Part shown: in pieces, positions 5,383-38,046 of the stretch
Numbering within the stretch: position 1 is the stretch's first letter
Layout: every line of letters starts with the position of its first letter
Assembly: GCA_900545715.1 (NCBI GenBank)
Contig: URAJ01000022.1
Span: 1-38,138 of the forward strand
Source of the DNA: an uncultured Opitutales bacterium
GTDB lineage: Bacteria > Verrucomicrobiota > Verrucomicrobiia > Opitutales > Intestinicryptomonadaceae
Direction: 5' to 3'
DNA: 38,138 nucleotides
Translations under genes and position numbers: made by a program
Notes under the pieces: generated by a model
Database searches by the model: none
What the model was told of the DNA's origin: nothing
What the model saw: only the letters and a program-made list of their open reading frames with translations

Positions 5383-5390
5383 GGCGATGC

Positions 5391-9348: not shown

Positions 9349-9353
9349 ACCCC

Positions 9354-15000: not shown

Positions 15001-15016
15001 TCGGAGGCGAAGCAAA

Positions 15017-16696: not shown

Positions 16697-16714
16697 TAGA
16701 AAAGGAAAACTGTT

Positions 16715-18024: not shown

Positions 18025-18382
18025 ATCCCCGTGGAGGGCAATATGTTTTTGGAAGCGTTTATCTAAAAAAATTTTAGTTTCAAAATTTGAAAATTTGCCT
18101 GCATGAGTTAAGACTTAACCTGCGAGTGAAGCGCAATTTTTTAATATAAGGCGCAATTCTCGAATAACTTTTAAGTAGATATTTTATGGGTAGTTTTTAT
18201 GAACTTGCCGCAAACTGATTGCGTAATTCAGTGATTGGGGTTCTGAATAGCTTTTATAAATTTTATACGAATATTCGGTAGAATGCGCATTAGCGCAAAA
18301 ATTTACCAAAACCCCAAAGAGTAGTTGCAAGAAAGGGCGGAACGGTTAACATATTTGCTTTAAAATAAAACTTAATTTGCAA
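18025..18382. other. AT-rich upstream region of the polyketide/lipid cluster
   Basis: A gene-free stretch between the pilC terminator and the KASIII-like gene. It is clearly AT-rich compared with the flanking genes and should hold the promoter of the KASIII-like gene. I cannot pick a convincing -10/-35 pair or operator by eye, and no Shine-Dalgarno is seen before ATG 18383. Confidence 0.45.
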
Positions 18383-19441
18383 ATGGGAATTTCCATAACA
18401 TCTTTGGCATACGTTTTGCCCGGGCAGAAAAATACGAACGCCGAGCTTGCCGAGCGGTTTGGAAGCGAAACTGTTGCAAAAATAGAATCAATTTCCGGAA
18501 TATTGGAGCGCCGCACGGCAAAAGGAGATACATGCGCGTCTGACCTCGCCGTTAGAGCGGCCCGGCTGATTTTTGAGAACAGTAAAATTTCCCCAAAAGA
18601 TATAGACCTCTTGATTTTTGCGACGCAAACCCCCGACTACTTGATTCCGACAACCGCATGCATAATCCAGCAAAGGCTTGGAATAGATAATTCATGCGCC
18701 GCGTTTGATATAAATCTCGGATGCTCGCAGTTTGTTTACGCCCTTGCGACGGCGCGCGCTTGGATATGCGGGGGGCTCGCTAAGAATGCGCTCGTATTGT
18801 GCGCCGATACCCCTACAAAGATAATCGACCCGCTAGACCGCTCGACCGCCTGCATTTTCGGGGACGGAGGAGCCGCTTGCACAGTCTCAAAGAGCGAGAT
18901 TGACGGAATTTTGGGCTTTTCGTTCGGCACAGACGGCAAGGGATTTGACAGCATAATATGGCCAAATTCGGGCTTGCGCGGCTATGGAGGGGAAACCATG
19001 CGCGCAGATAAAATGGCAATGGACGGCTTTAAGATTTTCACATTCGCCTATAAAAGGGTCGCGGAGTCGGTCGCGGAAGTCCTTGAAAAAAACGGCATGT
19101 CCGTGCGCGACATAGACCTGTTTGTATTCCATCAGGCTGGGGAAATGATAGTCAAGTCTTGCGCCCAGCGCTTGTGTATTCCGACGGAAAAAGTTTATTA
19201 CAAAATGCACGACATAGGAAACTGCGGGGGCGCGAGCATTCCCATAGCGCTCGCCGACGCCGCCATAACCGGAAGGCTAAAAAGCGGCATGAAAGTACTA
19301 ATATGCGCCTTTGGAGTCGGGCTGTCTTGGGGGAGCGCAATATTGGAGTGGAACTGTGCATTCACAGGGGCGTTTACCGATGCCGACTTTTCTAATTCTC
19401 CTGAAAAGCCGAGAAGCCAGCGGGCGGCAGACATCGCATAG
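18383..19441 (+). CDS. KASIII-like 3-oxoacyl-ACP synthase
   Basis: A 352-residue FabH-fold condensing enzyme; I chose ATG 18383 over TTG 18377. The Cys-His-Asn triad of the KASIII family is visible: Cys114 in NLGCSQFVYA, His250 in FVFHQAGEM and Asn280 in DIGNCGGASIP. Enzymes of this type join an acyl-CoA starter to malonyl-ACP and so start a chain. The usual HQAN is HQAG here, which is common among secondary-metabolism members and may alter starter choice. The gene is transcribed towards the radical SAM-ketosynthase fusion gene and is the first gene of the cluster. It could load the starter unit for the chain built by the two KS-CLF fusions; this is an inference from context. Confidence 0.9.
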   Translation: MGISITSLAYVLPGQKNTNAELAERFGSETVAKIESISGILERRTAKGDTCASDLAVRAARLIFENSKISPKDIDLLIFATQTPDYLIPTTACIIQQRLGIDNSCAAFDINLGCSQFVYALATARAWICGGLAKNALVLCADTPTKIIDPLDRSTACIFGDGGAACTVSKSEIDGILGFSFGTDGKGFDSIIWPNSGLRGYGGETMRADKMAMDGFKIFTFAYKRVAESVAEVLEKNGMSVRDIDLFVFHQAGEMIVKSCAQRLCIPTEKVYYKMHDIGNCGGASIPIALADAAITGRLKSGMKVLICAFGVGLSWGSAILEWNCAFTGAFTDADFSNSPEKPRSQRAADIA

Positions 19442-19766: not shown

Positions 19767-22700
19767 TCACACGGCAAAAACCGCCGCGAAGTTGTTGCCT
19801 ACATGGCTCGACGCCGCGCAAAGAATCTTTTTGGGGGATTTCGGGAGCGGGAAATTGTCTATTTCCGCAATACCCGTTTTTTGCCGCCAAATTGGAATGC
19901 CTTTTTTAAGGCAAAACAGAACTTCGGCAAGCGCGGATATAGTGGAAGCCGACTCGATATACCCCGTATTGAATACATTTGTGACAATGCCAGCACTTGG
20001 GAAACGCCTGCGCCAGACATTCAGGATTTTTTCGTCCTGGGCGTCGCCGCGCGGACTCCAAATGAGCAAATCTATCTCAGAATCCGCCGTTTTCGCCTTA
20101 GCCAAAGCGTCGTTTACTGCAATCTCAAAACCCTCAGAACCGAGATTCGCACCGCAAAAATCGCCCGGCTCCTCGTATGAAGCGAAGGATAAAATCGAGC
20201 CAAACACTTCCGCATTTCTTTTTTGTGCGGACTCCATCGTCTCGAGAATGAATGCGCATGCGCCTTCCGCATACACTGTTTTAAATGGATCCGGCGAACC
20301 CGGCCTAAAATTTTGAAGTTCGCTTTCGGAATAAATATTTCCGATTTTGTCGTAGCCCGCAATCTGCTGCGCATAAAGCTCGTCGGCGGCAAACGCAGCC
20401 ATTCTTTCGGCACGGGCTTCGCGCAAGACGTCCGCCGCGTACCCTAATGCCTGCAAGCCGCCGTTCGGCCCAGGCGTAAGCGTCAGGTTCGCACCCTTCA
20501 ATTCAAGCGCCTTTGAAACCCAGCCTGCCGTGGAGTTTGCCGTTACGTTTGAAAAGCACCCGACGTCTCCGCGCCTCTCGGGATTTGAGAAAACCGCGTC
20601 CATGTGCGGGCTTTCGCAAGAGCCTCTGGCAATCGCCGAAACTAAGCCCGTCTTTTCGGAGTCCGCGCGCGCAAGCCTAATGCCGGCCCTGTCAAAGGCG
20701 CGCTTTACGGCGAGAGTAGCGTAGGTGCTTATATTGTTCATTCCCGAAAAATCCACGCGCCTGTCCAAGCGCCTGACGTCGAGCTTGGGAACTAGCCCTC
20801 CCAAACACCGCGACTCAAACCTTCCGATTTTTGCAATCGCCGACTCTCCGTTTTCCAATGCGCGTATATTTTCTTCAATTCCCGCACCGAGCGGGGAAAC
20901 GATGTCGAAGCCCGTCACAACAATTTCTGAATCGCGCTTGCGCTGCGGCCTCTGCCCGGCGATAAAATCGCGCTTTGAAATTACGACAGCCGCATTGTTG
21001 CCTCCGAACGCGTAGTTTGCCGATATGAAACAGTCATACTTGCCGTATTTGTGTTCCGAAAGGGCGGAAATTTCGCATCCAGGGCGCCTGCCAATATTGC
21101 GCTGTGTCTTCGGGATAAAATCGTCGTTCATTGAAACAACTTGGCATGTTGCTTCGAGTATGCCTGTTGCTCCCATGCAGTGCCCCATGTAGGACTTTGT
21201 TGATGTCACGGGAACATCGAGCCCTCCGAGGAATTTAGCAATTCCCTTTGACTCCGCCTTGTCGTTGGCGGAAGTTCCAGAACCGTGGGCATTGATGCAC
21301 CCCAAGTCGCTCACTTCAACGCCTGCGTCGGCCGCGGCGTTTCTTAAAGTGCGGAAGACACCGTCGCCGCGCGGATCCGGCTGGGTCGGGTGGTGTGCGT
21401 CGGCTGTGGTTGCGTGGCCGATTATTTTGCATTTGCACTCCGCGCTCCTCAAAAGCGCTTTGCCGAGGTTTTCCACAACCCAAAATGCGGCGCCTTCGCC
21501 TATATTCATTCCCTCGGGGGTCGAGAATGGAGCAATCTTTTCAGGCGAAACTACTTTAATTGCGCTAAAACCCGCAAAATTCGACAATGCGAGCGCGTCC
21601 GCCCCGCCCACTATCACGATGTCGCACCTTCCCGATTCGACGAGGGTCTGCGCAAGACCTATCGCCGCGGTGGAGCCCGAACACGCCGTATTTACCATCC
21701 AGCACTCCCCTCCGAAACCGACAGCCGAAACTAAGGCCTTTTGGAGGGCATAGAACTCGGATTGCGTCGATACGCTCCTGTTGAAATCTACTTTCTCCCC
21801 GTATTTCTGGCGGTACTCGATTTCTCCCGAATTCAGCCCCGCATTGCAGGTGGCAAGCACATATCCGATTTTTCCGGAATACGAGCCCAAATCAACTCCC
21901 GAATCTTCTATCGCAGCGCGAGCCGCGCATATCGACATCCTTATAAACGGGTCTGTGTATGTTTTAAGCTCCGATTCGCTCATGCGCGAGGCCGGATCAA
22001 ACCCTTTGACCTCGGCGCAAATTTTCGATACAAACGCGGATAGGTCGAGCTTAGTTCCCTGCGCGATTCCGTCTACGCCTTTTTTTAGGGAATCCAAGAC
22101 CTCCTTTTGGGAGCAGCCGAGCGGGGAAACTATGCCTATTCCTGTGACGGCCGCCTCCGAACCCACTCCGCGCACCTCCAAGCGCTTGGACACTTTTAAT
22201 TCGTCGCCGCACCAAACGCTCGGCTCCATCTGGGCGAGGTTTCTGGACTGGTTCATTTCATAAAATCCCTTCCAACAATTTACAAATTCGTCTTTAAGCC
22301 TCTGCGCCGACATTTTTGCCGGCTGGAAAACTACGTGGGCGCCGTTATATTTATACCACTCGCGCGATGTAATCCGCTTCTGCGACTCCAGCCTGCGCCA
22401 GTGGGGCGAGCCCGGGTACGGAGAAAAAATAAAAAATTCCGACATCGTAATTTTAGCGCGCGAGCATATTTCGAGGACCCTGTCTGAAACGCCCTCGCCG
22501 TCCCAATCGCGGCCGAGCCCGAAAGACGCAAAGAAGCTTATGTCCATTCCGCGGAGCATATCTACAAACTCTGCGAGCTTCGACAGCCCCGAGTCGTCCC
22601 CCCTCATAACCGCAATCGAAGCGGGATCCACATTCAGCGTACAATAAAAATTCCGCACGCCTGCTTTTGCCGCGCGCCTAAAAAACGCCTCGTCCGAGTT

Positions 22701-23480
22701 TAACGCCATAGTGGACGACACAAAAAATTTCCGTCCCAGCCCCTCCACTGCGTCAAAGAATCTCTCCGCGTACTCCCTTACCGCCTTCTGGGGGAAAAAC
22801 AAAGAATCATCGGTAAGGTATATATTCTGGTGCCTTAGCTGTTTTATCTCTTCAACCGCCATATCCACCGGTTTAAAGCGCATTCTGTTTCCCATGTGGG
22901 CGGGAATGATGCACATGGCGCAACCGTACGGGCAGCCGCGCGTAAGCTGTATTAAATCCTCGTCCCAGTCGTAGCACTTTTTGTCGTAAAAAATATCGCG
23001 GCGCGGCATAGGCATTTGCGACATATCTACCGGCTTGGAAGATTTATATATTTTTTTAAGCTCCCCGCGCGAGAAGTCGGCGAGTAGCTCCGGCCAAGTG
23101 TATTCGCCCTCGCCAACGCATACGGCGTCCGCCACGGCGAGGCATTCGTCGGGCATGAAGCTCGGGAACATTCCACCCATTACAACGGGCTTTCCTGCGG
23201 CGCGGCATAGGCGGGCGATTTCGAGGGCGCGCGTGCCCTGCGGGGTAAAGCAGTTTATTGCGTACAAGTCTGTGCCGTCGCAGAAGTCCAACTTTTCCCC
23301 TGCATTGTCGTCAACAAACGCAATCTCCACGTCTTTCGGTGTCAGGCTTGCGAGGATGGGAATCCCAAGCGAAGGCGGGCATGTAAACTTGCCAACCGTA
23401 AAGAATTTGCTTTCGGCCTCCATTTTTGAGACCGATTCGAGAAATTTTTCAAACCGCGGATATACAAAAGTGACTTTCAT
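19767..23480 (-). CDS. Radical SAM (B12-type) - ketosynthase - chain-length-factor fusion protein
   Basis: A 1237-residue protein with three parts. Residues 1-150 resemble a cobalamin-binding Rossmann domain (PPSLGIPILASL, FVDDNAG, VVMGGMFPS). Residues 175-430 are a radical SAM domain with the cluster-binding cysteines Cys183, Cys187 and Cys190 in RGCPYGCAMC. Residues 446-845 are a FabF-type ketosynthase with the full triad Cys600 (VNTACSGS), His732 (NAHGSGT) and His767 (STKSYMGH). Residues 861-1237 are a second ketosynthase fold in which the active-site region reads LTPGPNGG and the His motifs are lost, as in chain-length factors. It should elongate an ACP-bound chain, while the radical SAM part may methylate or rearrange it. 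The ATG overlaps the previous stop by four bases. I know no such fusion. Confidence 0.9.
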   Translation of the reverse strand: MKVTFVYPRFEKFLESVSKMEAESKFFTVGKFTCPPSLGIPILASLTPKDVEIAFVDDNAGEKLDFCDGTDLYAINCFTPQGTRALEIARLCRAAGKPVVMGGMFPSFMPDECLAVADAVCVGEGEYTWPELLADFSRGELKKIYKSSKPVDMSQMPMPRRDIFYDKKCYDWDEDLIQLTRGCPYGCAMCIIPAHMGNRMRFKPVDMAVEEIKQLRHQNIYLTDDSLFFPQKAVREYAERFFDAVEGLGRKFFVSSTMALNSDEAFFRRAAKAGVRNFYCTLNVDPASIAVMRGDDSGLSKLAEFVDMLRGMDISFFASFGLGRDWDGEGVSDRVLEICSRAKITMSEFFIFSPYPGSPHWRRLESQKRITSREWYKYNGAHVVFQPAKMSAQRLKDEFVNCWKGFYEMNQSRNLAQMEPSVWCGDELKVSKRLEVRGVGSEAAVTGIGIVSPLGCSQKEVLDSLKKGVDGIAQGTKLDLSAFVSKICAEVKGFDPASRMSESELKTYTDPFIRMSICAARAAIEDSGVDLGSYSGKIGYVLATCNAGLNSGEIEYRQKYGEKVDFNRSVSTQSEFYALQKALVSAVGFGGECWMVNTACSGSTAAIGLAQTLVESGRCDIVIVGGADALALSNFAGFSAIKVVSPEKIAPFSTPEGMNIGEGAAFWVVENLGKALLRSAECKCKIIGHATTADAHHPTQPDPRGDGVFRTLRNAAADAGVEVSDLGCINAHGSGTSANDKAESKGIAKFLGGLDVPVTSTKSYMGHCMGATGILEATCQVVSMNDDFIPKTQRNIGRRPGCEISALSEHKYGKYDCFISANYAFGGNNAAVVISKRDFIAGQRPQRKRDSEIVVTGFDIVSPLGAGIEENIRALENGESAIAKIGRFESRCLGGLVPKLDVRRLDRRVDFSGMNNISTYATLAVKRAFDRAGIRLARADSEKTGLVSAIARGSCESPHMDAVFSNPERRGDVGCFSNVTANSTAGWVSKALELKGANLTLTPGPNGGLQALGYAADVLREARAERMAAFAADELYAQQIAGYDKIGNIYSESELQNFRPGSPDPFKTVYAEGACAFILETMESAQKRNAEVFGSILSFASYEEPGDFCGANLGSEGFEIAVNDALAKAKTADSEIDLLIWSPRGDAQDEKILNVWRRRFPSAGIVTNVFNTGYIESASTISALAEVLFCLKKGIPIWRQKTGIAEIDNFPLPKSPKKILCAASSHVGNNFAAVFAV

Positions 23481-24016
23481 TTTAAGCCCCCAATTTTTGA
23501 AGATGCAAGGCGCAAATCAATACGCAAAAAACCAGATTCTATTTTGAGAACGCGCGGAAGATATACGCCATTTTTTGTAGTGTAGTCGGAAAATTCGACG
23601 CCGACATTTTCAGTTCGGGCAAACTGCGGCTTTCCGTCAACGGAATGGACGCGCAGCTCGCGCGATTTTACGCAATCGTGGAATCCGAGAGCCAGGCGGA
23701 AGATATCCGCGGCGAGTCCGCCGACCTTATCTTTGTCGCCAAGCAGCTCCGAAACGAAAAGCTCGCACTTTTCAGCCCCGGGCGAAAACCTGCCCTTTAT
23801 CAAAGTTCCCGCCGCAGAATCCACCGCCATTGCTGTTTCGCCGCCGCTTTTTTTTACGACATACACGGAAATCGGAAGTTCCCTTCCCCAAAAGGACATT
23901 ACCCCCCTCTGCACATATGAGCTGCAGCGCGAAAGCCCGAATACCGCTCCGTCTGCCCGGCAAATTGGCGGGAACGCAAAAATCAAAGCGCACAGTATTG
24001 AAATAAAAAATCTCAT
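23477..24016 (-). CDS. Exported protein, LolB/DUF3261-like, of the cluster
   Basis: A 179-residue protein starting at ATG 24016, which forms an ATGA overlap with the preceding LolA-like gene; the TTG at 24040 is less likely. A signal peptide is present (MRFFISILCALIFAFPPICRADG). The mature part is beta-rich, with alternating polar and hydrophobic residues (FWGRELPISVYVVKKSGG, SGFLRIDLRLASS). Small exported proteins of this kind sit beside the LolA-like gene in aryl-polyene clusters (DUF3261-type) and may act in delivering the lipid product to the outer membrane. The family match is tentative, as sequence similarity is low. Its stop overlaps the start of the fusion gene. Confidence 0.7.
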   Translation of the reverse strand: MRFFISILCALIFAFPPICRADGAVFGLSRCSSYVQRGVMSFWGRELPISVYVVKKSGGETAMAVDSAAGTLIKGRFSPGAEKCELFVSELLGDKDKVGGLAADIFRLALGFHDCVKSRELRVHSVDGKPQFARTENVGVEFSDYTTKNGVYLPRVLKIESGFLRIDLRLASSKIGGLK

Positions 24017-24612
24017 TCTTTGCCGAAAACCAATTTGCAATTAAAGCTTCCGGGATTCGATATGTCGAACGCCCCAGTCAAATCCGCACTTCCGAACGAC
24101 GATTTCTTTATGCGCATTTCAGTTCTGTCGCCGGAGGCGTCGTATATAGTGACAGTTTCCGGCTTTGGCGGCTTGCCCGTTATCTTTATTGACTTAATAG
24201 CCTTTGCGATAAGCGGATTTTTTGGTGTAAGCACAATTTCGTTCCCGGACTTATTTGACACACTGAAAAGGTTGTCGGGGACTTTTTCGCCAGAAAGCAC
24301 GCCCTTTAACCCCGCCATTATTTCCGACACCGCGCGCGAGCTCGGCATATCTACGCGCTTCCACTTGCCGTTATCGAACTCAAACGCCGCCGAATCCGCC
24401 CCGTCAAAAATCATCGCCGAAACAAACGGCGCGAGCGTCTGCCATCTAACCCTGCCGGAGGCGTCGGAGGCAAGCAGGCATTTTCCTTCTATGGGCTCGT
24501 CAAAAAAGCTCACGTATTTTTTCGTTTCAAAAAGCAGGGCGCAAGCTCCCCCTTTCGCGAATGCGGACGCACACGCAAAAAACAGGCACAACAATAAAAA
24601 AAACCTCTTCAT
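24013..24612 (-). CDS. LolA-like periplasmic lipid/lipoprotein carrier
   Basis: A 199-residue periplasmic protein with a clear signal peptide (MKRFFLLLCLFFACASAFA). The mature part has the LolA pattern of a half beta-barrel that binds acyl chains: EGKCLLASDASGRVRWQTLAPF corresponds to the conserved strand pair with the Arg-Trp element, and later strands include DLFSVSNKSGNEIVLTPKN-like sequence. Homologs in aryl-polyene clusters are thought to carry the lipid product across the periplasm rather than ordinary lipoproteins. The start overlaps the KS-KS gene stop and the end overlaps the next gene, both by four bases (ATGA). Confidence 0.85.
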   Translation of the reverse strand: MKRFFLLLCLFFACASAFAKGGACALLFETKKYVSFFDEPIEGKCLLASDASGRVRWQTLAPFVSAMIFDGADSAAFEFDNGKWKRVDMPSSRAVSEIMAGLKGVLSGEKVPDNLFSVSNKSGNEIVLTPKNPLIAKAIKSIKITGKPPKPETVTIYDASGDRTEMRIKKSSFGSADLTGAFDISNPGSFNCKLVFGKE

Positions 24613-26780
24613 AAAACTCTATAAACAGTAAGAGCGGCCATCGACGCGCTCGAAAGCGAATATTGCGCATAAAGGCCGATTCCCATTGAAAGTGCGGCGC
24701 CAGCCCCAAATGCCGAAGCGCTGTAATTCCTTCCGGATAAATCCTCCAAATATGTGAATCCTCCAAAATTGTCCGACACCCTTTCGACAAGTTTTCCTGA
24801 AAAGCCCGTAAGGCGGCATGGTGTAAACCAAGCTTTAATGCTGTCCGCCGAAATTCCCGCCCCGGAGAGCGATTCTTCAATCCAGGCAGTTTCATGCTTT
24901 GGATTTTTGGAAGAGCGCCTTATTTTTAGCAGCATAATCTCAGCCAGCGGACTGCCTTCACAACAGCCCTCTTTCCCGACAAAATAGGCGGCGCAAGAAT
25001 CCGAAAACGCGCGCGAGCCTTTCGGCAAGCGTTTTCTCATGGCGTATTCCGCCGCGAGGCTGTTGTACTCGTCGCCGCCGGCGACAATCGCCGCGGCGCA
25101 ATCGCCGTTTCTTATCCGCGCGCAAGCCTCCATTAAAGCCGCCTCAAAAGATATTTCCTTGGCAGTCGAAGCGCAATTGTACGCAAAGCATTTAAAATAT
25201 CCGGCTATCGCCGACGGCGGCGCATTGTGCACGGAATTTGTAAAAGCCGTCGGCAAAGGCGCGTCGGAAACCATAAAGTTTTCCAAAAACCTGGAAGTCT
25301 CGGACACCATTCCAAGGCCTGTCGAGCAGCTGACGCAAACAGAATCCCCAAATTCGGAAACTTTTGCTTGTGAAACAGCTTCGCGAGACGCCGAGATAAA
25401 CATTTTTTGAAGTTTTGCCCACTTGCGTTTTTTGAGGACGGGAATGTCCGGCAAAAGAGAATTTTCGTCCACCAGCGCAATTTCTCCGGGCTCAGGCAGC
25501 GTATCGAAACCTGCATTTGCGCGGGAAGCCCCTGCCCCATATATAAAAATTCCGCCTTCTGAAATAGGCTCATGCGCATTTTCTTCAAAAATCCCTCCCG
25601 CTTCGAGATTGCCGACATATATCGCAGCACATGAATTGTTTCCGCCGAAGCCGAGACTTACAGATAGCGCAGCCTTTGCGTGAGAGGGCTTTTCAGCGCG
25701 TTCGAGCGGCCCAGGGCAAGATCCGGAAACATACCCAGCTGAAGGCGGAAGCATTCCCTCTCTCAGCGCATCAATTGCAATTATTGCGTTTAAAATGCCG
25801 CTCGCGCCAAGCGTATGGCCAAAAATCGACTTCACAGAAGAATACGGCGGCACGTTCTCTCCGAATACGCCCTTCAAGGCCGAGAGCTCCGCGGAGTCGT
25901 TCGCGGGAGTTCCTGTTCCGTGCGCGCAGTAATAAGATATGTCGGCAACAGTAAGCCCTCCCTTGCGCATGCACTTCTCAATCGCTTTCTTTGCGCCTTC
26001 GCCGCCCGGGTGAGGAGAAGTCGCATGGTACGCGTCGCAAGTTGACCCGAAAGATATAAATTCCGCAAGCGCCCGCGCGCCGATTGGGAGATTTTCGCGC
26101 GCGCACAGAATAACCACGCCGCCGGCTTCGCCCAAATTTATGCCGTCCCTTTCAGAATCGAACGGCCTGCAATCGGACTTCGACAAGAGCCCGAGCGAAC
26201 CAAAGCCCTCCACCGTTATGCGCGAGAGTGTGTCGGCGCCGCAGACTATCGCGGCGTCGCACCTGCCCTCCGATATCGCAAGGCACGCGGATTCGAGAGC
26301 AAGCGACGAGCTCGAGCACGCGGTGGAGTACGTCGCGCATTCTCCCTCCGCCCCCGCGCGCCGCGCAACCAGCTCTGCCATAGCGGAACATTCGTAAAAC
26401 TTGAATGCCGGCGGCGTTCCTTTTTTGGCGCTTTTTAATATTTTTTCAAACGCATTTTCGGACTCCAATATTCCCCCTACGGAAGTTCCCGCATAAACGC
26501 CGATTCTTTCAGGCTCGAAGCATGAAAGCGACACTTTTTCAAGAGCCTCGTCGAGGGCCTCAAACAAAATCTTTGCGCACCGCGGAAGTTTTTCTGAGTG
26601 CTCCACGCATGCCTCTCCGACATGCGTTTTTTCGAAACGGCGCGAAGCGTACAGTCCGCAATCTCCGAAAGGCTTAAATAAAAATCCGGACTTGCCGAAG
26701 CTTGCGCGAAACGCCGCGCCCGCCCCTTTGCCGGAGTCGCAGCATAGTCCGTAAGATATTACTGTCGGGCGCCTTCTCAT
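24609..26780 (-). CDS. Ketosynthase - chain-length-factor-like fusion protein
   Basis: A 723-residue protein with two condensing-enzyme folds. Residues 1-395 are a FabF-type ketosynthase with Cys155 (STACSSSS), His287 (CAHGTGTPAND) and His322 (SVKSIFGH), so it should be active. Residues about 410-723 are a divergent ketosynthase-like domain of the type found in aryl-polyene clusters as a separate subunit: TNSVHNAPPSAIAGYF, AYNCASTAKEISFEAAL and VAGGDEYNSLAAEYA. The residues of a normal triad are absent from it. The pair probably forms a KS-CLF heterodimer-like unit in one chain that sets chain length. It follows an acyl carrier protein gene with an ATGA overlap, so it likely works with that carrier. 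Confidence 0.93.
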   Translation of the reverse strand: MRRRPTVISYGLCCDSGKGAGAAFRASFGKSGFLFKPFGDCGLYASRRFEKTHVGEACVEHSEKLPRCAKILFEALDEALEKVSLSCFEPERIGVYAGTSVGGILESENAFEKILKSAKKGTPPAFKFYECSAMAELVARRAGAEGECATYSTACSSSSLALESACLAISEGRCDAAIVCGADTLSRITVEGFGSLGLLSKSDCRPFDSERDGINLGEAGGVVILCARENLPIGARALAEFISFGSTCDAYHATSPHPGGEGAKKAIEKCMRKGGLTVADISYYCAHGTGTPANDSAELSALKGVFGENVPPYSSVKSIFGHTLGASGILNAIIAIDALREGMLPPSAGYVSGSCPGPLERAEKPSHAKAALSVSLGFGGNNSCAAIYVGNLEAGGIFEENAHEPISEGGIFIYGAGASRANAGFDTLPEPGEIALVDENSLLPDIPVLKKRKWAKLQKMFISASREAVSQAKVSEFGDSVCVSCSTGLGMVSETSRFLENFMVSDAPLPTAFTNSVHNAPPSAIAGYFKCFAYNCASTAKEISFEAALMEACARIRNGDCAAAIVAGGDEYNSLAAEYAMRKRLPKGSRAFSDSCAAYFVGKEGCCEGSPLAEIMLLKIRRSSKNPKHETAWIEESLSGAGISADSIKAWFTPCRLTGFSGKLVERVSDNFGGFTYLEDLSGRNYSASAFGAGAALSMGIGLYAQYSLSSASMAALTVYRVL

Positions 26781-27040
26781 TTGGCGTTTGCCGCTATGTA
26801 GTCGGCGAGCGCATTCACCGATGCGAACACCGTGGACGCCGAAGTTTTATCCTCGACAGAAACCCCATACTCTTTTTCAACCATGACGACGAGTTCGAGG
26901 GCGTCAACGGAGTCGAGCCCGAGCCCGTCGTCTCCAAATAGCGGAGTGTCTGAGTCGATTGAGTCGGGCGACATGCCTTGGAGGTTTAGGGCGGAAATCA
27001 TTTTTTTCTTTATGTCTGAAACGAGAGCTTCTTTGTCCAT
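26777..27040 (-). CDS. Acyl carrier protein (first)
   Basis: An 87-residue acidic helical protein starting at ATG 27040. The phosphopantetheine attachment site is Ser44 in GLGLDSVDALEL, the standard ACP motif. Helix 1 (ALVSDIKKKMISALN) and the last helix (SVNALADYIAAN) complete the fold. It carries the growing chain for the ketosynthases next to it, with which it shares an ATGA overlap. The upstream extension on the same frame (to 27094) is not ACP-like. The DSV rather than DSL at the serine is a minor variant. Confidence 0.94.
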   Translation of the reverse strand: MDKEALVSDIKKKMISALNLQGMSPDSIDSDTPLFGDDGLGLDSVDALELVVMVEKEYGVSVEDKTSASTVFASVNALADYIAANAK

Positions 27041-27344: not shown

Positions 27345-28235
27345 TTATTTTTCGTCGCCAAAAAAATCGTAAAAATTGTACCACTGGTACGGATATTTTC
27401 TCAAAACTCCTTCGAGGTTGGAAAAGTATTGCGAAGCACCCGCGCTTGCCGCCTCGTCCGCCGTCGAGCAGCCTGAAAGGTCTATGTCTTTGCAGAACAT
27501 GCGGTACTTAAACATAGATTCCCTCATGCAAAATATCTGGAGCACCCGCGCCCCCGCGCGCCACGCGCAAATGTACGGCGCCCCAGGAGCCTCGATTCGC
27601 GAGCCGAGAAAATCGGCGCCCGCGCTCCTTCCGCCAGCATTTCTATCTGCATGCATTGCGGCAATTCCGCCCCCGCGCAATATTCCGTATATCGCAACCG
27701 CCGACATCGAATCCGAACTGTCCAAGACAACTTTCGGCTTTTCTCTCCTGCGCGATGACTCTACAAGCTTGCGGATTTCAAGCCTCTCGCGGTCGGCGCC
27801 CAAAATTGCGGCCTCCGGGAAATTCTCCGCAAGTTTTCCCGCGGCAATAGCCCAGCCCCCGGTGTGCGAAGCAAGCACGAGCGTCCCGCGGCCTTCCTTC
27901 GCGGATTCCCTTATTATACTTTCGGCGCAATCGCGCACTTTAATGCTTCCGCAGCCTGAAAAATAGGCGGTTCTATCGAGAATTGAAACGCCGAACGAGA
28001 AAACCGACTTATACGCGCGCAAAGAAATTGTCGGCACCCGGCAGCCAAAAATTCTCGAAAGATACGCGCAAATCGGCGCCACCGCGCGCCTCCTAAAAAG
28101 AATAAAAAACGCAGCGACAAACACAAGCAGCCCGTACGCCGGAACGAGCCCTATTTTCAGGAGGGATATAAACGCGAGAGTCCCCCAATATCCGCCGTAG
28201 GACTTTCCGCTCCAAGCCACTTTTTTATTTGCCAT
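27345..28235 (-). CDS. LpxL/HtrB-family lipid acyltransferase
   Basis: A 296-residue inner-membrane protein starting at ATG 28235, eleven bases inside the end of the exporter gene. One strong hydrophobic helix spans about residues 18-48. The family core includes LVLASHTGGWAIA (His124) and an AAMHADRNAGG segment matching the later LpxL region with its conserved Asp-Arg. Members transfer an acyl chain from an ACP to a lipid; in aryl-polyene clusters such enzymes are thought to attach the polyene to a lipid anchor. The acidic residue usually five positions after the His is Ala129 here, so the catalytic set may be altered or the alignment shifted. Confidence 0.82.
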   Translation of the reverse strand: MANKKVAWSGKSYGGYWGTLAFISLLKIGLVPAYGLLVFVAAFFILFRRRAVAPICAYLSRIFGCRVPTISLRAYKSVFSFGVSILDRTAYFSGCGSIKVRDCAESIIRESAKEGRGTLVLASHTGGWAIAAGKLAENFPEAAILGADRERLEIRKLVESSRRREKPKVVLDSSDSMSAVAIYGILRGGGIAAMHADRNAGGRSAGADFLGSRIEAPGAPYICAWRAGARVLQIFCMRESMFKYRMFCKDIDLSGCSTADEAASAGASQYFSNLEGVLRKYPYQWYNFYDFFGDEK

Positions 28236-30615
28236 CGAATTCCCCTCCAAGAATTTTTGCGAAGGCAGGCGCCGCCAATACCGACGCGCACAATATCGAA
28301 AATATGGAAATCCCTGCCGCCGCCCCAAGCCCGCTTATGACAGGATGCCGCGCAAACGCAAGCGCGCCGAAAGCCGCCGTAGTTGTAAGCGCCGAAAGCA
28401 GTACGGGGCCCGCCGCCGACACCCCTTTTTTCTCCCTTACTGCCGCCCACATAATCATAACCGCATAGTCTTGGGCGAGGCATACCGAGAATATCACAAA
28501 AATAAAGTTTGTAAGCGTTATCGGCACGCCGCACAGGCGCATCAGCGCAAAGCACCACACAAGCCCCGCGCAGACGCACGCCATTGCGCATGCCGCCATT
28601 GCCGCCGACCTGAGGGAAACAGCCAAAAATATTCCGACCACAGCCAATGCGCACAGCGCGCACTTCAAGAAAATTCCGCGCGTTTTGTTGGAAATATGCT
28701 CGCCCAAATACTCCATATCCAAAATAAAGGCATTCCCGTCTGCCGCCTCGACTATCCGCGCGAGTTCCGCCTTTGACGCACCGTCATTCAAATACACGGG
28801 CGCACATACGGCCGCGACACCGCCGCCTTTAAAAATTCTCTTTGAGAAAATTTTCGACAGCTCCCCGCTATCTTCTATTCCCACAGATTGCGCCCGCGCC
28901 GATGCTATAAAATCCAATGCAGGCTTAAAAATTTTGAATGATACCCCGTTTTTTGCGCATTCGGCCGAGAGACTGTCAGAAAAACTTTTTAGCCTCTCGG
29001 CAGTCCAAAATTCCTCCCACGCGCCTATGTTGCGGCAACTATCGGAGCGCGGAACGAGAAGCCCCGAAAGCATTGCCGGCGATACCTTCGGATACGACAG
29101 CGCCGCCGATTCCGCCGATTTTAGCGAGGCGAGCGCCGACTCCAAATTGTCGCCGTACGCCACTATCTGGGGAGATGAAATCATATTGCCCCACAGCCTT
29201 CGGATATTAGAATCAGCCGCTTCGCTCTCAGGCAAAAGTGCATTCATAGAAGAAATTTTGCCGTCAAAGCGCACATTTAAAGCAAGCGGCGCCGCAGCCG
29301 CGGAAATCGCAAAAACCAAAATTAAAAAAGCGCGCGGACTGCTGAATTGCGGCCTTAGAATCCGCTTTGACACCCTTTCGAGTAGCGCAGCCCTCCCGCT
29401 TCCTCCGCCTGCCGAAACCGCAAAGGCGGGTAGCGCGCATAGAGAAAACACGGCGGAAGCCAAAACACCCACAAACCCGAATGCTCCCAGCTGCACCATT
29501 CCGCCCCCGAGACACCCGACAATGACAAATGCCATTAAAGTAGTTGAGCATATCACCAATATTGGCGCGGCGAGCTTTCCAGCAACTCCCGCCGCAAAGC
29601 GGATGTCAAACCTGCCCTTTAAATCGAGCGGGCAAAGCACATGCACTGCGTAGTCTATTCCGACCCCGAGCGCGATAGACGCAAACGCCACCGAAATTGT
29701 CGAAATTTTGCCGAAAACCGCACCCGCAAAGCAAAACGCCGCCGCGCTCCCGAGAAGCGACGGCATAACGGCAAGAGGCGCAAACAATTTGTTTCTAAAA
29801 GCGACAAAGCACAGCGCAAGCATCAATACGCAGGTTGCAGCCATGCATGCGTACGAATCCGAGCGCGCGATTTTTGCGTTGTCGGCGGATATTCTATAAG
29901 AGCCGGTCCAGTCTATTTTAACGCCGCTTTCTAAGGCTCTCGAGCACGCTCTGTCGATTGATTCGCACACTTTTGCCGAGGCTGTTGAATCGCGCCCATT
30001 GGCGTCGGAGCGCGCGATGAGCAGAAAATTTTTGCCGTCCGTGTCTGATATCAAAGAGCCGTCGAATTTGTATTCAGCCCCTCCGCCGGACAGCTTTTTT
30101 AGCTTTTCGAGAACGAGCGGTATAGTTCCCGCCGGATCCGAAACAAAAGCCGATTTGAATACGGGCGCCTCGAAGCCCGACATTCTTCGCATATAGTATG
30201 AGAAGCGCTTTTTTATAGAATCAGGCGATATTGAACGCTCCAATTCCGATATATTGCAAATTTGCGGATAGACCTTCGGGATTTCCGCGGCGGCGCGGGA
30301 AGGATCCGGGAATGAGTCGAATTTGAATCCCTCCTTTTCCAGCTCATCGCGCAGTTTTAATGCGCACGCGCGAGCGGCGCCCTCTGGCCCACCCGAAACG
30401 TTAAAATAGACGGAGTTAGAAACGCCGAACCAGTCGGCGGCCATGCGCGCGTTTTCGAGCTGGGAATCCCAAAACGGGATAAGGTCGTACACGTCGGTTT
30501 TAAACGGCGCGTGTTTTGCGACAATTACCGCAGCCGCACAGAGAACGGCGGCGGCTACCGAAAAAAGAAGCCTGTGGAAATAAGTAAACTCCGCGATTTT
30601 CTTTACAAAATTCAT
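28225..30615 (-). CDS. MMPL/RND-type lipid exporter of the cluster
   Basis: A 796-residue inner-membrane protein with the MMPL layout: one helix (RLLFSVAAAVLCAAAVIVAK), a large periplasmic domain, a bundle of helices including SIALGVGIDYAVHVLCPL (a hydrophilic Asp-Tyr in the helix typical of this family), and a repeat of the arrangement in the second half (QDYAVMIMWAAVREKKGV). Homologs in aryl-polyene and flexirubin clusters are proposed to move the product out of the inner membrane. The start overlaps the glycosyltransferase gene by four bases (ATGA), and the end overlaps the acyltransferase gene. All three should be co-expressed. Confidence 0.92.
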   Translation of the reverse strand: MNFVKKIAEFTYFHRLLFSVAAAVLCAAAVIVAKHAPFKTDVYDLIPFWDSQLENARMAADWFGVSNSVYFNVSGGPEGAARACALKLRDELEKEGFKFDSFPDPSRAAAEIPKVYPQICNISELERSISPDSIKKRFSYYMRRMSGFEAPVFKSAFVSDPAGTIPLVLEKLKKLSGGGAEYKFDGSLISDTDGKNFLLIARSDANGRDSTASAKVCESIDRACSRALESGVKIDWTGSYRISADNAKIARSDSYACMAATCVLMLALCFVAFRNKLFAPLAVMPSLLGSAAAFCFAGAVFGKISTISVAFASIALGVGIDYAVHVLCPLDLKGRFDIRFAAGVAGKLAAPILVICSTTLMAFVIVGCLGGGMVQLGAFGFVGVLASAVFSLCALPAFAVSAGGGSGRAALLERVSKRILRPQFSSPRAFLILVFAISAAAAPLALNVRFDGKISSMNALLPESEAADSNIRRLWGNMISSPQIVAYGDNLESALASLKSAESAALSYPKVSPAMLSGLLVPRSDSCRNIGAWEEFWTAERLKSFSDSLSAECAKNGVSFKIFKPALDFIASARAQSVGIEDSGELSKIFSKRIFKGGGVAAVCAPVYLNDGASKAELARIVEAADGNAFILDMEYLGEHISNKTRGIFLKCALCALAVVGIFLAVSLRSAAMAACAMACVCAGLVWCFALMRLCGVPITLTNFIFVIFSVCLAQDYAVMIMWAAVREKKGVSAAGPVLLSALTTTAAFGALAFARHPVISGLGAAAGISIFSILCASVLAAPAFAKILGGEFDGK

Positions 30616-31364
30616 TTTTTTACGGAGATTTTTTTTAACGCTCCCTTTGGAAGAAATACAGCCAGAAAAGCCAATTTTGCGTTCATTATGGAGAATTTTA
30701 CCGTATCCTTAAAAGGTTTGTAATGCGACGCCCTCAAGCTCTCAGGCGTATAAATTACAGGAATCGGAAGCTCTATTATTCTAACGCCCGCCCACGCGGC
30801 GCGGACGAGCAGCTCGGCCTCGTAGGCGAATCCGCCCACCCCGGTTTTTAAGGCCGACACCTTTGCTATGGGATAGCACCTATACCCGCACTGTGTGTCG
30901 GATAAATCTACGGAAGTCTCGAAGTGAAACCAGAAATTGGAAAATTTATTCATGAACCTCCGCTTGGGCGGCACAGACGGGGACGAGAAATCGCGCACGC
31001 CCGTAATAATGCAATCGGGATATTTTTGCGCCATATCCGCAAACTTTGCGAACATTGAAGGAGGATGCTGCCCGTCGGCGTCGAGCGTAACGGCATGCGT
31101 AAACCCGCGCTCCGCAGCGGCGGAAAAGCCGGTCTTTAACGCCTCCGCCTTTCCCCTGTTTTGCTCCGAGCGCAAAACTTCGCATCTTTGACGCGAGTTC
31201 TTTATGGGAACATCGGAGCCGTCGTCTATTATGAGGGCAAAAACTTCATCAGGCAGGGCGCGGACAACGGCGTCGATAGTATCGGCATTGTTGTGCGACG
31301 GAATTATCGCGCAAATTTTTACGTTTGCCGCCCGCTCTCTTTGAACTTGAAATGAATCGCCCAT
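30612..31364 (-). CDS. Family 2 glycosyltransferase
   Basis: A 250-residue GT-A enzyme. The nucleotide-sugar binding start is CAIIPSHNNADTIDAVVRAL with IIDDGSD, and the DADGQH motif supplies the metal-binding Asp residues. The later part (GGFAYEAELLVRAAWAG, IELPIPVIYTPE) resembles dolichyl-phosphate mannose synthase-like enzymes. A hydrophobic segment occurs near the C-terminus. It probably adds a sugar to a lipid that carries the polyene. It is the first gene of the minus-strand half and diverges from the second ACP gene across 52 bases. Confidence 0.9.
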   Translation of the reverse strand: MGDSFQVQRERAANVKICAIIPSHNNADTIDAVVRALPDEVFALIIDDGSDVPIKNSRQRCEVLRSEQNRGKAEALKTGFSAAAERGFTHAVTLDADGQHPPSMFAKFADMAQKYPDCIITGVRDFSSPSVPPKRRFMNKFSNFWFHFETSVDLSDTQCGYRCYPIAKVSALKTGVGGFAYEAELLVRAAWAGVRIIELPIPVIYTPESLRASHYKPFKDTVKFSIMNAKLAFLAVFLPKGALKKISVKK

Positions 31365-31416: not shown

Positions 31417-31698
31417 ATGCCCAATAATAAGGAAAAGCTGCAACGCAGAAAAGAAATATCGCTGCTGTTGAAGGAAAAATTAATAGAGGCGCTCGACATT
31501 CCATACGAACCGCGCGACATATCCGAAGACATAGCCCTGATAGGCTCCGGGCTCGGCCTGGACTCTCTCGACGTGCTTGAAATAGTATTATGCGTCGAAA
31601 ACAATTTTGGGGTCAAGGTCCCGGAAGGACAGACGCTCGCGCTGAGATCGCTAAACACACTCATAGACTTTATAATATCGGAACAAGATAAGAAATGA
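31417..31698 (+). CDS. Acyl carrier protein (second)
   Basis: A 93-residue acidic ACP with Ser50 in GLGLDSLDVLEI as the phosphopantetheine site. Relative to the first ACP it has a longer, basic N-terminus (KEKLQRRKEI), and its third helix (SLNTLIDFIISEQ) differs. Two dissimilar ACPs are usual in aryl-polyene pathways, where each may serve a different stage (start, elongation). It begins the plus-strand operon and ends with an ATGA overlap onto the GcvT-like gene. Confidence 0.94.
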   Translation: MPNNKEKLQRRKEISLLLKEKLIEALDIPYEPRDISEDIALIGSGLGLDSLDVLEIVLCVENNFGVKVPEGQTLALRSLNTLIDFIISEQDKK

Positions 31699-32768
31699 GA
31701 GAACTTGCCCTAAAAAAATTTTGGGAGGAGCGCGGCGCAAAATTCGGAGAACTCGGAGGGGCGCAATGCGTGGAGTCGTTTGCTGACGCGGAAAGCGAAT
31801 ACAAGGCGATACGCAATTCCGCCGGCCTTTGCGATTTCTCCTTCATGAGAATAGTGGAATTTCCGGAATCGGACGGCATCGACTACCTCGATACGGCGCT
31901 TGCCGCAAACATATTGAAGCTGCGCTACGGAAGAATAATAGACACATTCTTGTGCGACGAAAACGGCAAGATAACCGCCGAAGTGTTCGTTGCCAACATA
32001 GACGACAAGGTCTTTGCGTTCACCGAATCGCTAACAGACAGCGCGGAAATTTTGGGGGAAGGCGGAAATGCGAAAGACGCCACCAAAGATTACGCGATTT
32101 TCTCCGTTGACGGGCCAAAGGCGTGGGAAGTCGCGCGCGACATATTCGGCTCGGACATTTTCAACCTGCCGTACCTTGCAATAGAAAAATACGATTTTGA
32201 AGGCGATTGCGCATACCTAATGCGCAACGGCAAAACAGGGGAATTTGGATACAGTTTTGTAGTCCCCTCTGCAAAGGCCGAGGCGATGGCGCAAAAGCTC
32301 TGCCAAGCAGTTGAAAATGCGGGAGGAGCTCTTTGCGGAACAAAGGCGCACGCGGTCGCGCGCTTGGAAAGCGGATTTTTTAACATATACAAAGAAGGCG
32401 CATTGGTCGGCGACCCCATAGCGCTCGGTCTCCAATGGATGGCGGACTTCTCAAAGGACTCGTTTTCCGGTTCGGAAGCCGTATATAAAGTGCGCGAAGA
32501 AGAGGCGAAAGCAAAAATCACCGCTGTTGAGGGCTCGGGAGTCGAAAAAGGCGCCGCCCTGTACGACGGAGATAAAAAAATAGGGGAAGTCATCACCTCG
32601 ACAAAGTCTGTGTCCCTCGGAGACAATATAGGGCTTGCGCTAATGGATAGCGAATGCGCGTATCCATCGCTCGAGCTCTCAACAGCCCCCGGCGGCGAAG
32701 TCAATGCGAGGACTGTCACGAGACCCATGACAGTATCCGAAAGCCTGATAAAGGGAATGCAACAATAA
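31695..32768 (+). CDS. GcvT/YgfZ-like folate-fold protein, atypical
   Basis: A 357-residue protein of the aminomethyltransferase fold (glycine cleavage T protein, YgfZ, dimethylglycine oxidase C-terminal domain). The start region IRNSAGLCDFSFMRIVEF aligns with the T-protein pattern of Asn-Ala-Gly-Asp-Ser/Phe. Later family regions are IFSVDGPKAWEVARDIFG, ARLESGFFNIYKEG and DKKIGEVITSTKSVSLG. The T protein normally has an Asp-Asp-Leu around the folate-bound catalytic site; here it reads ITAEVFV, so the glycine-cleavage reaction is unlikely. Position between an ACP and a thioesterase suggests a one-carbon or folate-binding role in the cluster. Its exact chemistry is unknown to me. Confidence 0.82.
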   Translation: MRELALKKFWEERGAKFGELGGAQCVESFADAESEYKAIRNSAGLCDFSFMRIVEFPESDGIDYLDTALAANILKLRYGRIIDTFLCDENGKITAEVFVANIDDKVFAFTESLTDSAEILGEGGNAKDATKDYAIFSVDGPKAWEVARDIFGSDIFNLPYLAIEKYDFEGDCAYLMRNGKTGEFGYSFVVPSAKAEAMAQKLCQAVENAGGALCGTKAHAVARLESGFFNIYKEGALVGDPIALGLQWMADFSKDSFSGSEAVYKVREEEAKAKITAVEGSGVEKGAALYDGDKKIGEVITSTKSVSLGDNIGLALMDSECAYPSLELSTAPGGEVNARTVTRPMTVSESLIKGMQQ

Positions 32769-32772
32769 AAAT

Positions 32773-33195
32773 ATGGCCAGGAGAATAACGCGCAGAATGG
32801 CGATATCGCCGGAGTTCAGAGACATCGACCTCATGGGCGTAGTCCACAACTGCGTGTATTTCGAATGGTTTGAGCGCGGCAGACTTTCGATAATGAACGA
32901 AGCCTTGAATTTTGACGATGCAAAAAAACTAAATATAGCAGTTCCCGTCGTCAAAAATTCATGCGAATATCAAGTGCCTGTGAGACTCGGCGACAGCCTT
33001 GAATTATTGACGCGCCATAAAATAGAAGATCCGTTTTCGGGCAAGCTCGAATTTACGCACGAACTTAGAAATGCGCGGACGGGGGTCCTGCATGCTTACG
33101 GAGAGTGCGTATGTTGCGTGGCGGATATCCGCACTATGAAACTCGTGCGGAGCTTCACCCCGGAAATAGCCGAAAAATATTTGCAACTGAAATAG
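32773..33195 (+). CDS. Hot-dog acyl thioesterase (4HBT/YbgC-like)
   Basis: A 140-residue protein of the hot-dog fold. The active-site segment FRDIDLMGVVHNCVYFEWFERGR contains Asp17, which lines up with the catalytic Asp of 4-hydroxybenzoyl-CoA thioesterase. The length matches the family. It may release a finished chain or clear misprimed acyl groups from the ACPs; some members in such clusters instead act as dehydratases. It starts four bases after the GcvT-like gene and ends one base before the reductase gene. Confidence 0.92.
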   Translation: MARRITRRMAISPEFRDIDLMGVVHNCVYFEWFERGRLSIMNEALNFDDAKKLNIAVPVVKNSCEYQVPVRLGDSLELLTRHKIEDPFSGKLEFTHELRNARTGVLHAYGECVCCVADIRTMKLVRSFTPEIAEKYLQLK

Positions 33196-33196
33196 A

Positions 33197-33925
33197 ATGG
33201 GCGAAAAAGTAGCGATAGTAACGGGTGGCTCGCGCGGCATAGGCAAAGCGGTAGTCGAAAAATTTGCGGGCGCAGGTATAAAGGTGTATTTCACATACGC
33301 AAACTCTGAGGATTCCGCGGCAAAGCTTGCGGGGGAATGCGGCGCGACTGCAATACGCTGCCCCCAAAACGACTCCGAAAAAATAGCCGAAACAGTCGAT
33401 AAAATATACGCCGAAAACGGGGCGATAGACATTCTCGTAAACAACGCAGGCATTACGCGCGACAATTTTCTAATGCTAATGCCAAAACCGTCGTGGAGGG
33501 AAGTGATCGAGACAAACCTCAACGGAGCCTACGAATGGACAAAGTGCGTAGCAAAAAAAATGTACGCGCGCAAAAGCGGCTCAATAATATTCATATCGTC
33601 GGTATCAGGGCTTGTAGGCGTTGCGGGGCAGACAAACTACGCCGCAAGCAAGGGGGCAATATGCGCGTTTTCGCGGGCGTGCGCCGCCGAGCTCGGCGCA
33701 AAATCAATAAGGGTAAACACAATTTGCCCAGGATTTATAGATACGGACATGACCGCAAAAATCCCGAGGGACATTGCAAACAAGCAGCGCGAGCGGATTG
33801 TTTTAAAACGCTTTGGAAAACCTGAGGAAGTTGCAGAAGCCGCGTTTTTTCTTGCGTCGGACGGGGCGTCGTACATAACGGGCCAGACTCTCGTAGTCGA
33901 TGGGGGGCTCACAGGCTGCGTCTAA
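33197..33925 (+). CDS. 3-oxoacyl-ACP reductase, FabG-like
   Basis: A 242-residue short-chain dehydrogenase. The NADPH-binding loop TGGSRGIG is at residues 9-16, NNAG follows, and the catalytic set is the Ser in FISSVSG with YAASK. The C-terminal VDGGLTGCV is typical of FabG. It should reduce the 3-keto group formed by the ketosynthases before dehydration. It is the last gene of the plus-strand half; a hairpin lies about 100 bases downstream. Confidence 0.95.
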   Translation: MGEKVAIVTGGSRGIGKAVVEKFAGAGIKVYFTYANSEDSAAKLAGECGATAIRCPQNDSEKIAETVDKIYAENGAIDILVNNAGITRDNFLMLMPKPSWREVIETNLNGAYEWTKCVAKKMYARKSGSIIFISSVSGLVGVAGQTNYAASKGAICAFSRACAAELGAKSIRVNTICPGFIDTDMTAKIPRDIANKQRERIVLKRFGKPEEVAEAAFFLASDGASYITGQTLVVDGGLTGCV

Positions 33926-34873: not shown

Positions 34874-34890
34874 CTAAACCCCGCCTACCC
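34629..34890. repeat. Degenerate direct repeats of about 75-100 bases
   Basis: Two clear units, about 34629-34727 and 34733-34808, share GAACGTC..., ACATTCTCCCGA, GTTAA, ACCCT-CCGAAAGA and GCCTCGTTTA in the same order. The first has a short insert in the middle. A third, weaker copy begins near 34813 and runs into the end of the flavoprotein gene. On the plus strand one frame gives repeating PSER-P-ASF peptide words without a start codon, so this could be the remnant of a repeat-encoding gene or an RNA element. Confidence 0.55.
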
Positions 34891-35962: not shown

Positions 35963-36414
35963 AGTTTGACGTTTTTATCCGAAGCCAATACTATAGTGCC
36001 GGAAGCGGCAATATCCCTGCCCTTTCTGGCCTCGACCGAAAAGCTGTACAAGCCGCCGTATTCGCGCACAAATTTTGCGTTTGTGCTCAAAACGCCCCCC
36101 GCCTTAACAACCGATTTAAATTTTACATTCGCCGCTGCGAGAAAAAACACTTTGCCTTCGTGCGATTTGTCGCCGGACGCCTGCGCGTTTAAGGCAATCA
36201 GCAACCCGCAAGTTTGAGCGAGCGATTCCGTTATCATAACGCCCGGCATTATAGGCATGCCCGGGAAATGGCCCTTAAAGAACGGAAGCGTCGGCGGAAT
36301 ATCAAGCTCGGCGACAATTCCTTTTGAAGCGTCGCACTCCACGACCCTGTCAACCATGAGAAACGGCTCCCTCTGCGGGAGGAAGTTCATAATTTCCGAC
36401 TTTTCCAACAACAT
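35959..36414 (-). CDS. FabZ-like 3-hydroxyacyl-ACP dehydratase
   Basis: A 151-residue hot-dog dehydratase; I chose ATG 36414, as the TTG at 36450 is improbable. The active-site pattern PFFKGHFPGMPIMPGVMITESLAQ holds His49 and Glu63. It removes water from 3-hydroxyacyl-ACP to give the trans-2-enoyl product; with no enoyl reductase in the cluster, repeated use gives a conjugated polyene. It follows the acyltransferase gene by 32 bases and overlaps the flavoprotein start. Aryl-polyene clusters usually have two dehydratases; only this one is seen here. Confidence 0.93.
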   Translation of the reverse strand: MLLEKSEIMNFLPQREPFLMVDRVVECDASKGIVAELDIPPTLPFFKGHFPGMPIMPGVMITESLAQTCGLLIALNAQASGDKSHEGKVFFLAAANVKFKSVVKAGGVLSTNAKFVREYGGLYSFSVEARKGRDIAASGTIVLASDKNVKL

Positions 36415-36446
36415 TTGAAAAGAATAGAAAAAATGCGGCGTCAAAT

Positions 36447-37866: not shown

Positions 37867-37970
37867 ATTGAGAGTGCAGTCGCAAGATATGGGAGATAAT
37901 AAAAAGAGTAGTATATAGAAAAATATATTGACTAATTTACAAGAATAAAGCATATTTGAAACTTTAAAAA

Positions 37971-38046
<76 letters not shown>

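Follow-up and report, generated by a model that had tools for sequence, protein, structure and literature searches.

A protein that joins a cobalamin-type radical S-adenosylmethionine (SAM) module to a ketosynthase (KS) and a chain-length factor (CLF) is encoded in a 38,138-nucleotide stretch of an uncultured Opitutales bacterium (contig URAJ01000022.1, positions 1 to 38,138; in the following, the window). This fusion is real, conserved and, as far as our searches show, undescribed; it is part of an aryl-polyene-like lipid pathway and may point to modified lipids of a class not yet described. No published description of a radical SAM-KS-CLF fusion was found among literature listings and abstracts, a coverage outside which most subscription journals lie. 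The gene is located on the minus strand and forms a single frame of 1237 codons, from ATG to stop and free of internal stops. Its parts are:

19767..23480, minus strand: radical SAM-KS-CLF fusion, with B12-binding-like and radical SAM domains at residues 1-430, KS at about 440-838 and CLF at about 850-1237
22191..23480, minus strand: radical SAM part, residues 1-430; AlphaFold2 pLDDT 89.5, modelled as a Rossmann-like domain followed by a radical SAM barrel
19770..22190, minus strand: KS-CLF part, with a fold resembling the KS-CLF of PfaC (6riw)

The Pfam models for B12-binding (residues 70-132, 39.7 bits against a cut-off of 32.1), Radical_SAM (residues 177-286, 32.9 bits, cut-off 29.5) and the N- and C-terminal ketoacyl-synt domains (residues 444-792, 142 and 90 bits) all match the fusion. 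Its last 390 residues are a degenerate ketosynthase, the second stretch matched by the KS models. Residue conservation was analyzed in an alignment of 45 rows, consisting of the window protein cut to 1200 residues and 44 database proteins. C183, C187, C190, C600, H732, K762 and H767 are invariant in all 45 rows. The first three form the cluster motif CX3CX2C, which Pfam, model and alignment place inside the radical SAM barrel. In the CLF domain, the position of the KS cysteine is occupied by P, H, A or S, that of the first KS histidine by A, S or G and that of the KS lysine by T, S or V, each in 45 of 45 rows. The position equivalent to H767 carries Y, F or K in 41 rows, the window protein having a tyrosine, and histidine is kept in the remaining four. 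Because the KS residues are invariant and their C-terminal counterparts replaced, the two domains are assigned from their sequences as an active-type KS and an inactive KS-like partner, that is, a KS-CLF pair. The sequence-only reading had claimed a single frame with a cobalamin-type radical SAM module, an intact ketosynthase with C600, H732 and H767, and a ketosynthase-like domain lacking the catalytic cysteine; each of these features was recovered at its exact coordinates or residues, with K762 added to the KS set.

Modelled with AlphaFold2, residues 1-1200 reach a pLDDT of 89.1 and a pTM of 0.87, scores compatible with a fixed, defined arrangement of the radical SAM and KS-CLF parts. The top fold match of this model in the PDB is the one-chain KS-CLF of PfaC (6riw, E 8.2e-44). 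Since PfaC provides a solved precedent and the second KS protein of the window is also a one-chain KS-CLF, only the joining to a radical enzyme is unusual.

For the radical SAM half, sequence and model predict an N-terminal five-stranded Rossmann domain of the B12-binding type. The modelled strands (2-7, 52-57, 72-76, 99-102, 119-122 and one more) were placed by their position in the chain rather than by order or direction in the sheet; for class 1 cobalamin radical SAM enzymes, an excerpt of PMC13331322 describes five Rossmann strands and a further strand. In a single-sequence search of the PDB with this half, the first match was CysS, with an alignment extending across the B12-binding domain, and AprD4 followed at E 0.21. 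The best overall fold match of the modelled part is AprD4 (6fd2), at about 18% identity. CysS is a B12 methylase with a pantetheine-bound substrate, according to an excerpt of PMC12846815. In the solved enzymes covered by these two excerpts (PMC13331322, PMC12846815), the residue below the cobalt comes from the loop after strand 3 and is Trp, Arg or Asn. Pro80 of the fusion, within an invariant F-T-P-Q, aligns with Trp75 of CysS.

Cobalamin use was also examined in ten fusion genomes, which were picked by hand across several phyla, chiefly because their flanks were long, and whose counts are uncorrected for kinship. The MetH activation domain was detected in nine of them, eight above the cut-off, with stops in the frames of G004 and G009. 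Cobalamin use is therefore probable, and the idea that the fusion-bearing organisms use no B12 is unsupported. CobS was missing from six of the ten genomes, and a cobalamin riboswitch, sought as proof of B12 use, was found in none of 12 sources.

Homologues were searched with the radical SAM region as query, among proteins of 0.55-1.75 times the length of the fusion and at E <= 1e-3. This matched 232 clusters, and the best 120 show 52-100% identity over the radical SAM region and a KS Pfam domain in every row as read from the table; 116 of these 120 have lengths of 1222-1302 amino acids and four are shorter. Over the whole length, relatives share 45-66% identity with the window fusion. A scan of named genomes resulted in 44 loci, some of them cut by contig ends. 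In 35 of them the radical SAM-KS joint lies within a single open frame; these loci belong to the Verrucomicrobiota (Opitutales, subdivision 3, Kiritimatiellia and Lentisphaerae/Victivallales), the Fibrobacterota (Chitinivibrionales, Chitinispirillaceae and Fibrobacter), the Omnitrophota and one further bacterium. The search for this domain architecture across taxa, which the sequence-only reading had suggested, thus found it recurring in three phyla, and the counter-sign it had named, a stop or shift of frame between residues 430 and 446, did not appear, the relatives (52-91% identity over the radical SAM part) running open through the joint. The fusion is therefore an established protein family, conserved across phyla. 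That an assembly or frame error joined two genes is practically negligible as an explanation, as it is refuted by these homologues, both the 35 loci from several phyla and the database relatives.

In the other nine loci, all from Deltaproteobacteria or Myxococcota, the frame is broken or undecidable; L043 among them ends at a contig edge. Seven loci of the close family have a visible next gene. In six of these (L034, L035, L037, L039, L040, L041), the radical SAM protein has its own gene, and the gene immediately downstream encodes a KS-CLF in a different frame; a second KS-CLF follows in all but L039, which stops at the contig end. The exception among the close relatives is L038, with a lone radical SAM gene. 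The fusion is rare within the phylum, as a match to its radical SAM part at E 1e-60 was obtained in only three of 387 genomes in the phylum sample, and the match in G158 is a frame of 468 amino acids with 34% identity. In a quick tree of 98 rows chosen from the listed proteins, from which fused proteins of up to 1150 amino acids had been dropped, all 47 sampled fused radical SAM parts lie on one side of a branch with an SH-aLRT value of 99, and 34 lone and 17 more distant proteins lie outside. This grouping fits a single origin of the fusion. The nearest named relative was found in Puniceicoccaceae bacterium Marseille-Q1082 (its best segment shows 81% identity; the contig measures 1.77 Mb). 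Judged from its name it may be an isolate, so a search for the product looks realistic.

The fusion gene lies within a set of genes for acyl chain synthesis and lipid export:

18377..19441, plus strand: FabH-type ketosynthase III, possible initiator
23477..24040, minus strand: 187-amino-acid protein beside LolA, no Pfam or NCBIfam match; recurs in L001 and L002
24013..24612, minus strand: LolA-like lipoprotein carrier
24609..26780, minus strand: second one-chain KS-CLF, 723 amino acids; its KS half comes closest to NCBIfam PRK09185 (269 bits, cut-off 407)
26777..27040, minus strand: acyl carrier protein (ACP) 1; NF006617 76.4 bits, cut-off 70, scanned as 26777-27094, start read from sequence
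27345..28235, minus strand: LpxL-like acyltransferase
28225..30615, minus strand: RND/MMPL exporter, HpnN-like
30612..31364, minus strand: family 2 glycosyltransferase
31417..31698, plus strand: ACP2, conserved core member
31695..32768, plus strand: GcvT-like (folate-binding aminomethyltransferase-like) protein, conserved core member
32773..33195, plus strand: 4HBT thioesterase
33197..33925, plus strand: FabG-type ketoreductase; best NCBIfam model TIGR01830, 284.8 bits, cut-off 297.75; NF009466 (FabG subfamily) 224.1 bits, cut-off 222
34874..35962, minus strand: flavodoxin/FMN reductase fused to an SCP2 lipid-binding domain
35959..36450, minus strand: FabZ-type dehydratase; NF000582 114.4 bits, cut-off 113; FabA-like in Pfam
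36447..37226, minus strand: PlsC-type acyltransferase
37234..38031, minus strand: VTT-domain membrane protein, 33.5 bits, cut-off 33.9; uncertain member of the set

The conservation of these partners was counted by tblastn in the 19 fused loci, out of the 44, that extend at least 6 kb downstream, the other 25 loci being left out. ACP2, GcvT and FabG were each found in 18 loci, the second KS-CLF and FabD in 11, dehydratase and thioesterase in 10, flavodoxin-SCP2 and PlsC in eight, RND in five and an aromatic ammonia lyase in three. The sole locus without ACP2 and GcvT is L013, and in L001 and L024 both are located upstream. A conserved locus thus accompanies the fusion, with an ACP, a GcvT-like protein and a ketoreductase, and often a second KS-CLF, a dehydratase and a thioesterase.

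The GcvT-like protein (31695-32768) is among the most constant partners of the fusion. An identity as the Fe-S repair protein YgfZ was considered and rejected, as the cysteine motif of that protein was not seen on inspection of the translation by eye, and both NCBIfam and the PDB returned GcvT and aminomethyltransferase as matches. At the position of Asp96 of the Thermotoga T-protein (numbering counted by hand), which we take to be catalytic, 16 of 19 GcvT-like sequences carry D and three (window, L001, L024) carry E, so that a folate-type reaction stays possible. For the reductase at 33197-33925, the best Pfam match, PF13561, is described as enoyl-ACP reductase and suggested an enoyl reductase. 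It was read as a ketoreductase, since NCBIfam ranks FabG-type ketoreductase models first, one of them over its cut-off. A separate enoyl reductase was not seen among the window genes scanned. The flavodoxin-SCP2 protein (34874-35962) has no NCBIfam match at E 1e-5 and is a possible electron donor or pathway reductase. Between two operons, two direct repeats of 43 nucleotides, 72% alike and 84 nucleotides apart, occupy non-coding sequence at 34682-34808.

The locus is an aryl-polyene-like type II polyketide synthase (PKS). This follows from the parts it shares with aryl polyene (APE) systems and from three Fibrobacterota loci (L011, L016, L021; Fibrobacter/Chitinispirillum), where the fusion is preceded by a gene for an ammonia lyase (HAL) and by an APE-like KS. 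HAL was detected in seven of the ten fusion genomes, with no match in G001, G005 and G007, and no aromatic starter genes (ammonia lyase, AMP ligase) were found among the 30 window open reading frames scanned. A FabH-type gene adjoins the fusion in the window, L001 and L024 and lies nearby in L037. As proof of a non-aryl starter it is weak, as the single FabH-type match of G005 (E 1e-8) may be a housekeeping gene; G001 has two.

The domain architecture, its conservation, the common branch of the fused proteins, the neighbouring genes and the catalytic residues were observed directly. We infer with about even confidence that the fusion both elongates and modifies the chain in a dedicated type II PKS, whose product would be an unsaturated, polyene-like acyl chain destined for a lipid of the outer membrane. 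KS-CLF pairs extend an ACP-bound chain by condensation with malonyl units, and the KS-CLF half would do so here; the ketoreductase and dehydratase would then reduce and dehydrate the chain, in which double bonds should stay, because no separate enoyl reductase was seen. Positioned against the KS-CLF, the radical SAM half most likely modifies the same ACP-bound chain between condensations by means of a 5'-deoxyadenosyl radical. This would probably be a C-methylation, in which a methyl group from methylcobalamin is placed on a carbon out of reach for ordinary methyltransferases. The GcvT-like protein would presumably contribute a one-carbon step. Judging by family names, the acyltransferases may attach the chain to a carrier lipid, which the RND exporter and the LolA-like protein may then move outward. 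The interpretation put forward by the sequence-only reading, modification of the ACP-bound chain such as C-methylation, has thereby been supported in part: it gained an aryl-polyene-like setting, and the chemistry itself is retained as a proposal.

Carbon-carbon bonds could instead be formed within the polyene chain, giving rings and a carbocyclic or ladderane-like lipid that is not methylated. We regard this as unlikely, although several observations point toward it. Proteins above the cut-off of TIGR04072 (rSAM_ladder_B12) occur in six of the ten fusion genomes, compared with 38 of 387 in the phylum sample and none of 14 control genomes; the ten genomes behind this contrast were hand-chosen and counted without correction for kinship. 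On a 105-kb Verrucomicrobiota contig (G002:C44), the fusion (48.5 kb), an ammonia lyase (69 kb), a second, lone radical SAM relative beside a KS (78 kb) and a TIGR04072 gene (79.5 kb) lie within about 33 kb. A stretch of about 42 kb on this contig (L008 together with L061 and L062, the latter two at 60-90 kb) also holds extra KS genes, an AMP-ligase-like gene and exporters, and may be a supercluster that includes three radical enzymes of the B12 type. In L026, from a Victivallales bacterium, two more B12-type radical SAM genes precede the fusion at 3629-5059 and 8420-9760, the first resembling TIGR04072 (327 bits, cut-off 360) and the second HpnR (148 bits, cut-off 650). Furthermore, an excerpt of PMC9902471 reports antiSMASH 'ladderane' clusters in Fibrobacterota, Myxococcota, Verrucomicrobiota, Omnitrophota and others, with unknown function outside anammox bacteria. 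Against ring formation, the fused domain itself reaches only 62.1 bits with TIGR04072, where the cut-off is 360, which rules out ladderane membership by this model, and the Opitutales genomes G001 and G005 carry the fusion without a TIGR04072 match over the cut-off. In addition, the window genes scanned include no phytoene-desaturase-like gene; in the ladderane clusters of the anammox bacterium Kuenenia, such genes stand beside type II fatty acid synthase and radical SAM genes and are noted as unusual in an excerpt of PMC2649909.

It is similarly improbable that the radical SAM half works without cobalamin, keeping a B12-type fold as in AprD4 and removing oxygen or hydrogen by radical dehydration, desaturation or epimerisation. 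The modelled fold is nearest to AprD4, but fold similarity at 18% identity says nothing on function, the single-sequence search ranks CysS first, and the Pfam B12-binding match exceeds its cut-off. Action on another substrate, a starter unit or a protein, with the fusion only setting a 1:1 amount of two pathway enzymes, would fit L038 and the distant L044, lone relatives with no KS-CLF in their vicinity. This is very unlikely, given that the fusion is retained across phyla, that the unfused gene directly precedes KS-CLF in six of the seven close-family loci, L038 being the exception, and that the pTM of the model fits a defined arrangement.

If the radical SAM half does modify the growing chain, as we prefer to assume, radical chemistry would be added to chain elongation. 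Type II PKS and fatty acid synthase systems reduce, dehydrate and use ordinary methyltransferases. A wider proposal, held tentatively, is that a single polypeptide elongates an ACP-bound chain and also forms carbon-carbon bonds on it by radical chemistry, yielding methyl-branched or carbocyclic polyene lipids of an undescribed class in Verrucomicrobiota, Fibrobacterota and Omnitrophota, and by separate genes in Myxococcota, and that the clusters concerned may explain part of the non-anammox 'ladderane' predictions. Modification of the growing chain by the radical SAM half would also provide a one-gene handle on the lipids of many uncultured bacteria and would make 'ladderane' cluster calls outside anammox bacteria testable.

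Elsewhere in the window, an AcrB-type pump with HlyD-type and OEP-type partners forms a tripartite efflux set (2284-7899), and an 888-amino-acid Rho-like protein (10562-13228) has a very long N-terminal part, as its Rho RNA-binding and ATPase matches begin at about residue 517. At 13276-17962, two neighbouring genes encode GspE/PilB-type ATPases, and a gene of the GspF type comes next. The G+C content is 35% at positions 1-2000, compared with 45-54% in the remaining 2-kb steps. On a Fibrobacter contig (L036, 1084-1165), a ZMP/ZTP riboswitch (RF01750, 52.1 bits) was identified, which is apparently unrelated to the fusion cluster.

Compared with known systems, the fusion shares with CysS, TokK and TsrM the B12-binding-like Rossmann domain followed by a radical SAM barrel. 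In contrast to these methylases, its radical SAM half is fused to a KS-CLF and is shorter (430 residues versus 530-664 in the matched chains), and methylation by it is putative, as judged from sequence and model. The radical SAM diol dehydratase AprD4 is alike in fold, at the low identity given above, but has no PKS link, and the title of its entry 6fd2 names a complex with paromamine. The ladderane-type proteins of TIGR04072 likewise combine B12-binding and radical SAM domains in lipid clusters. In PfaC of the polyunsaturated fatty acid synthases (6riw), KS and CLF are also joined in one chain, and dehydratase domains follow in the same chain. The 1237-residue fusion differs by its radical SAM part, by discrete ACP and ketoreductase genes and by the absence of a dehydratase domain in Pfam. 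Finally, the locus has KS-CLF, ketoreductase, dehydratase, thioesterase, an ACP of the PRK09184 family (over the cut-off), an LpxL-type acyltransferase, LolA and an RND exporter in common with the type II PKS of aryl polyenes (ApeO-ApeC, ApeQ, ApeE/F and others). It differs from them in that KS and CLF form one chain twice, the second of these units falling below the PRK09185 cut-off, in the fused radical SAM part, in the GcvT-like and flavodoxin-SCP2 genes, and in that the window's own branch (the related genomes G001 and G005) has no ammonia lyase match.

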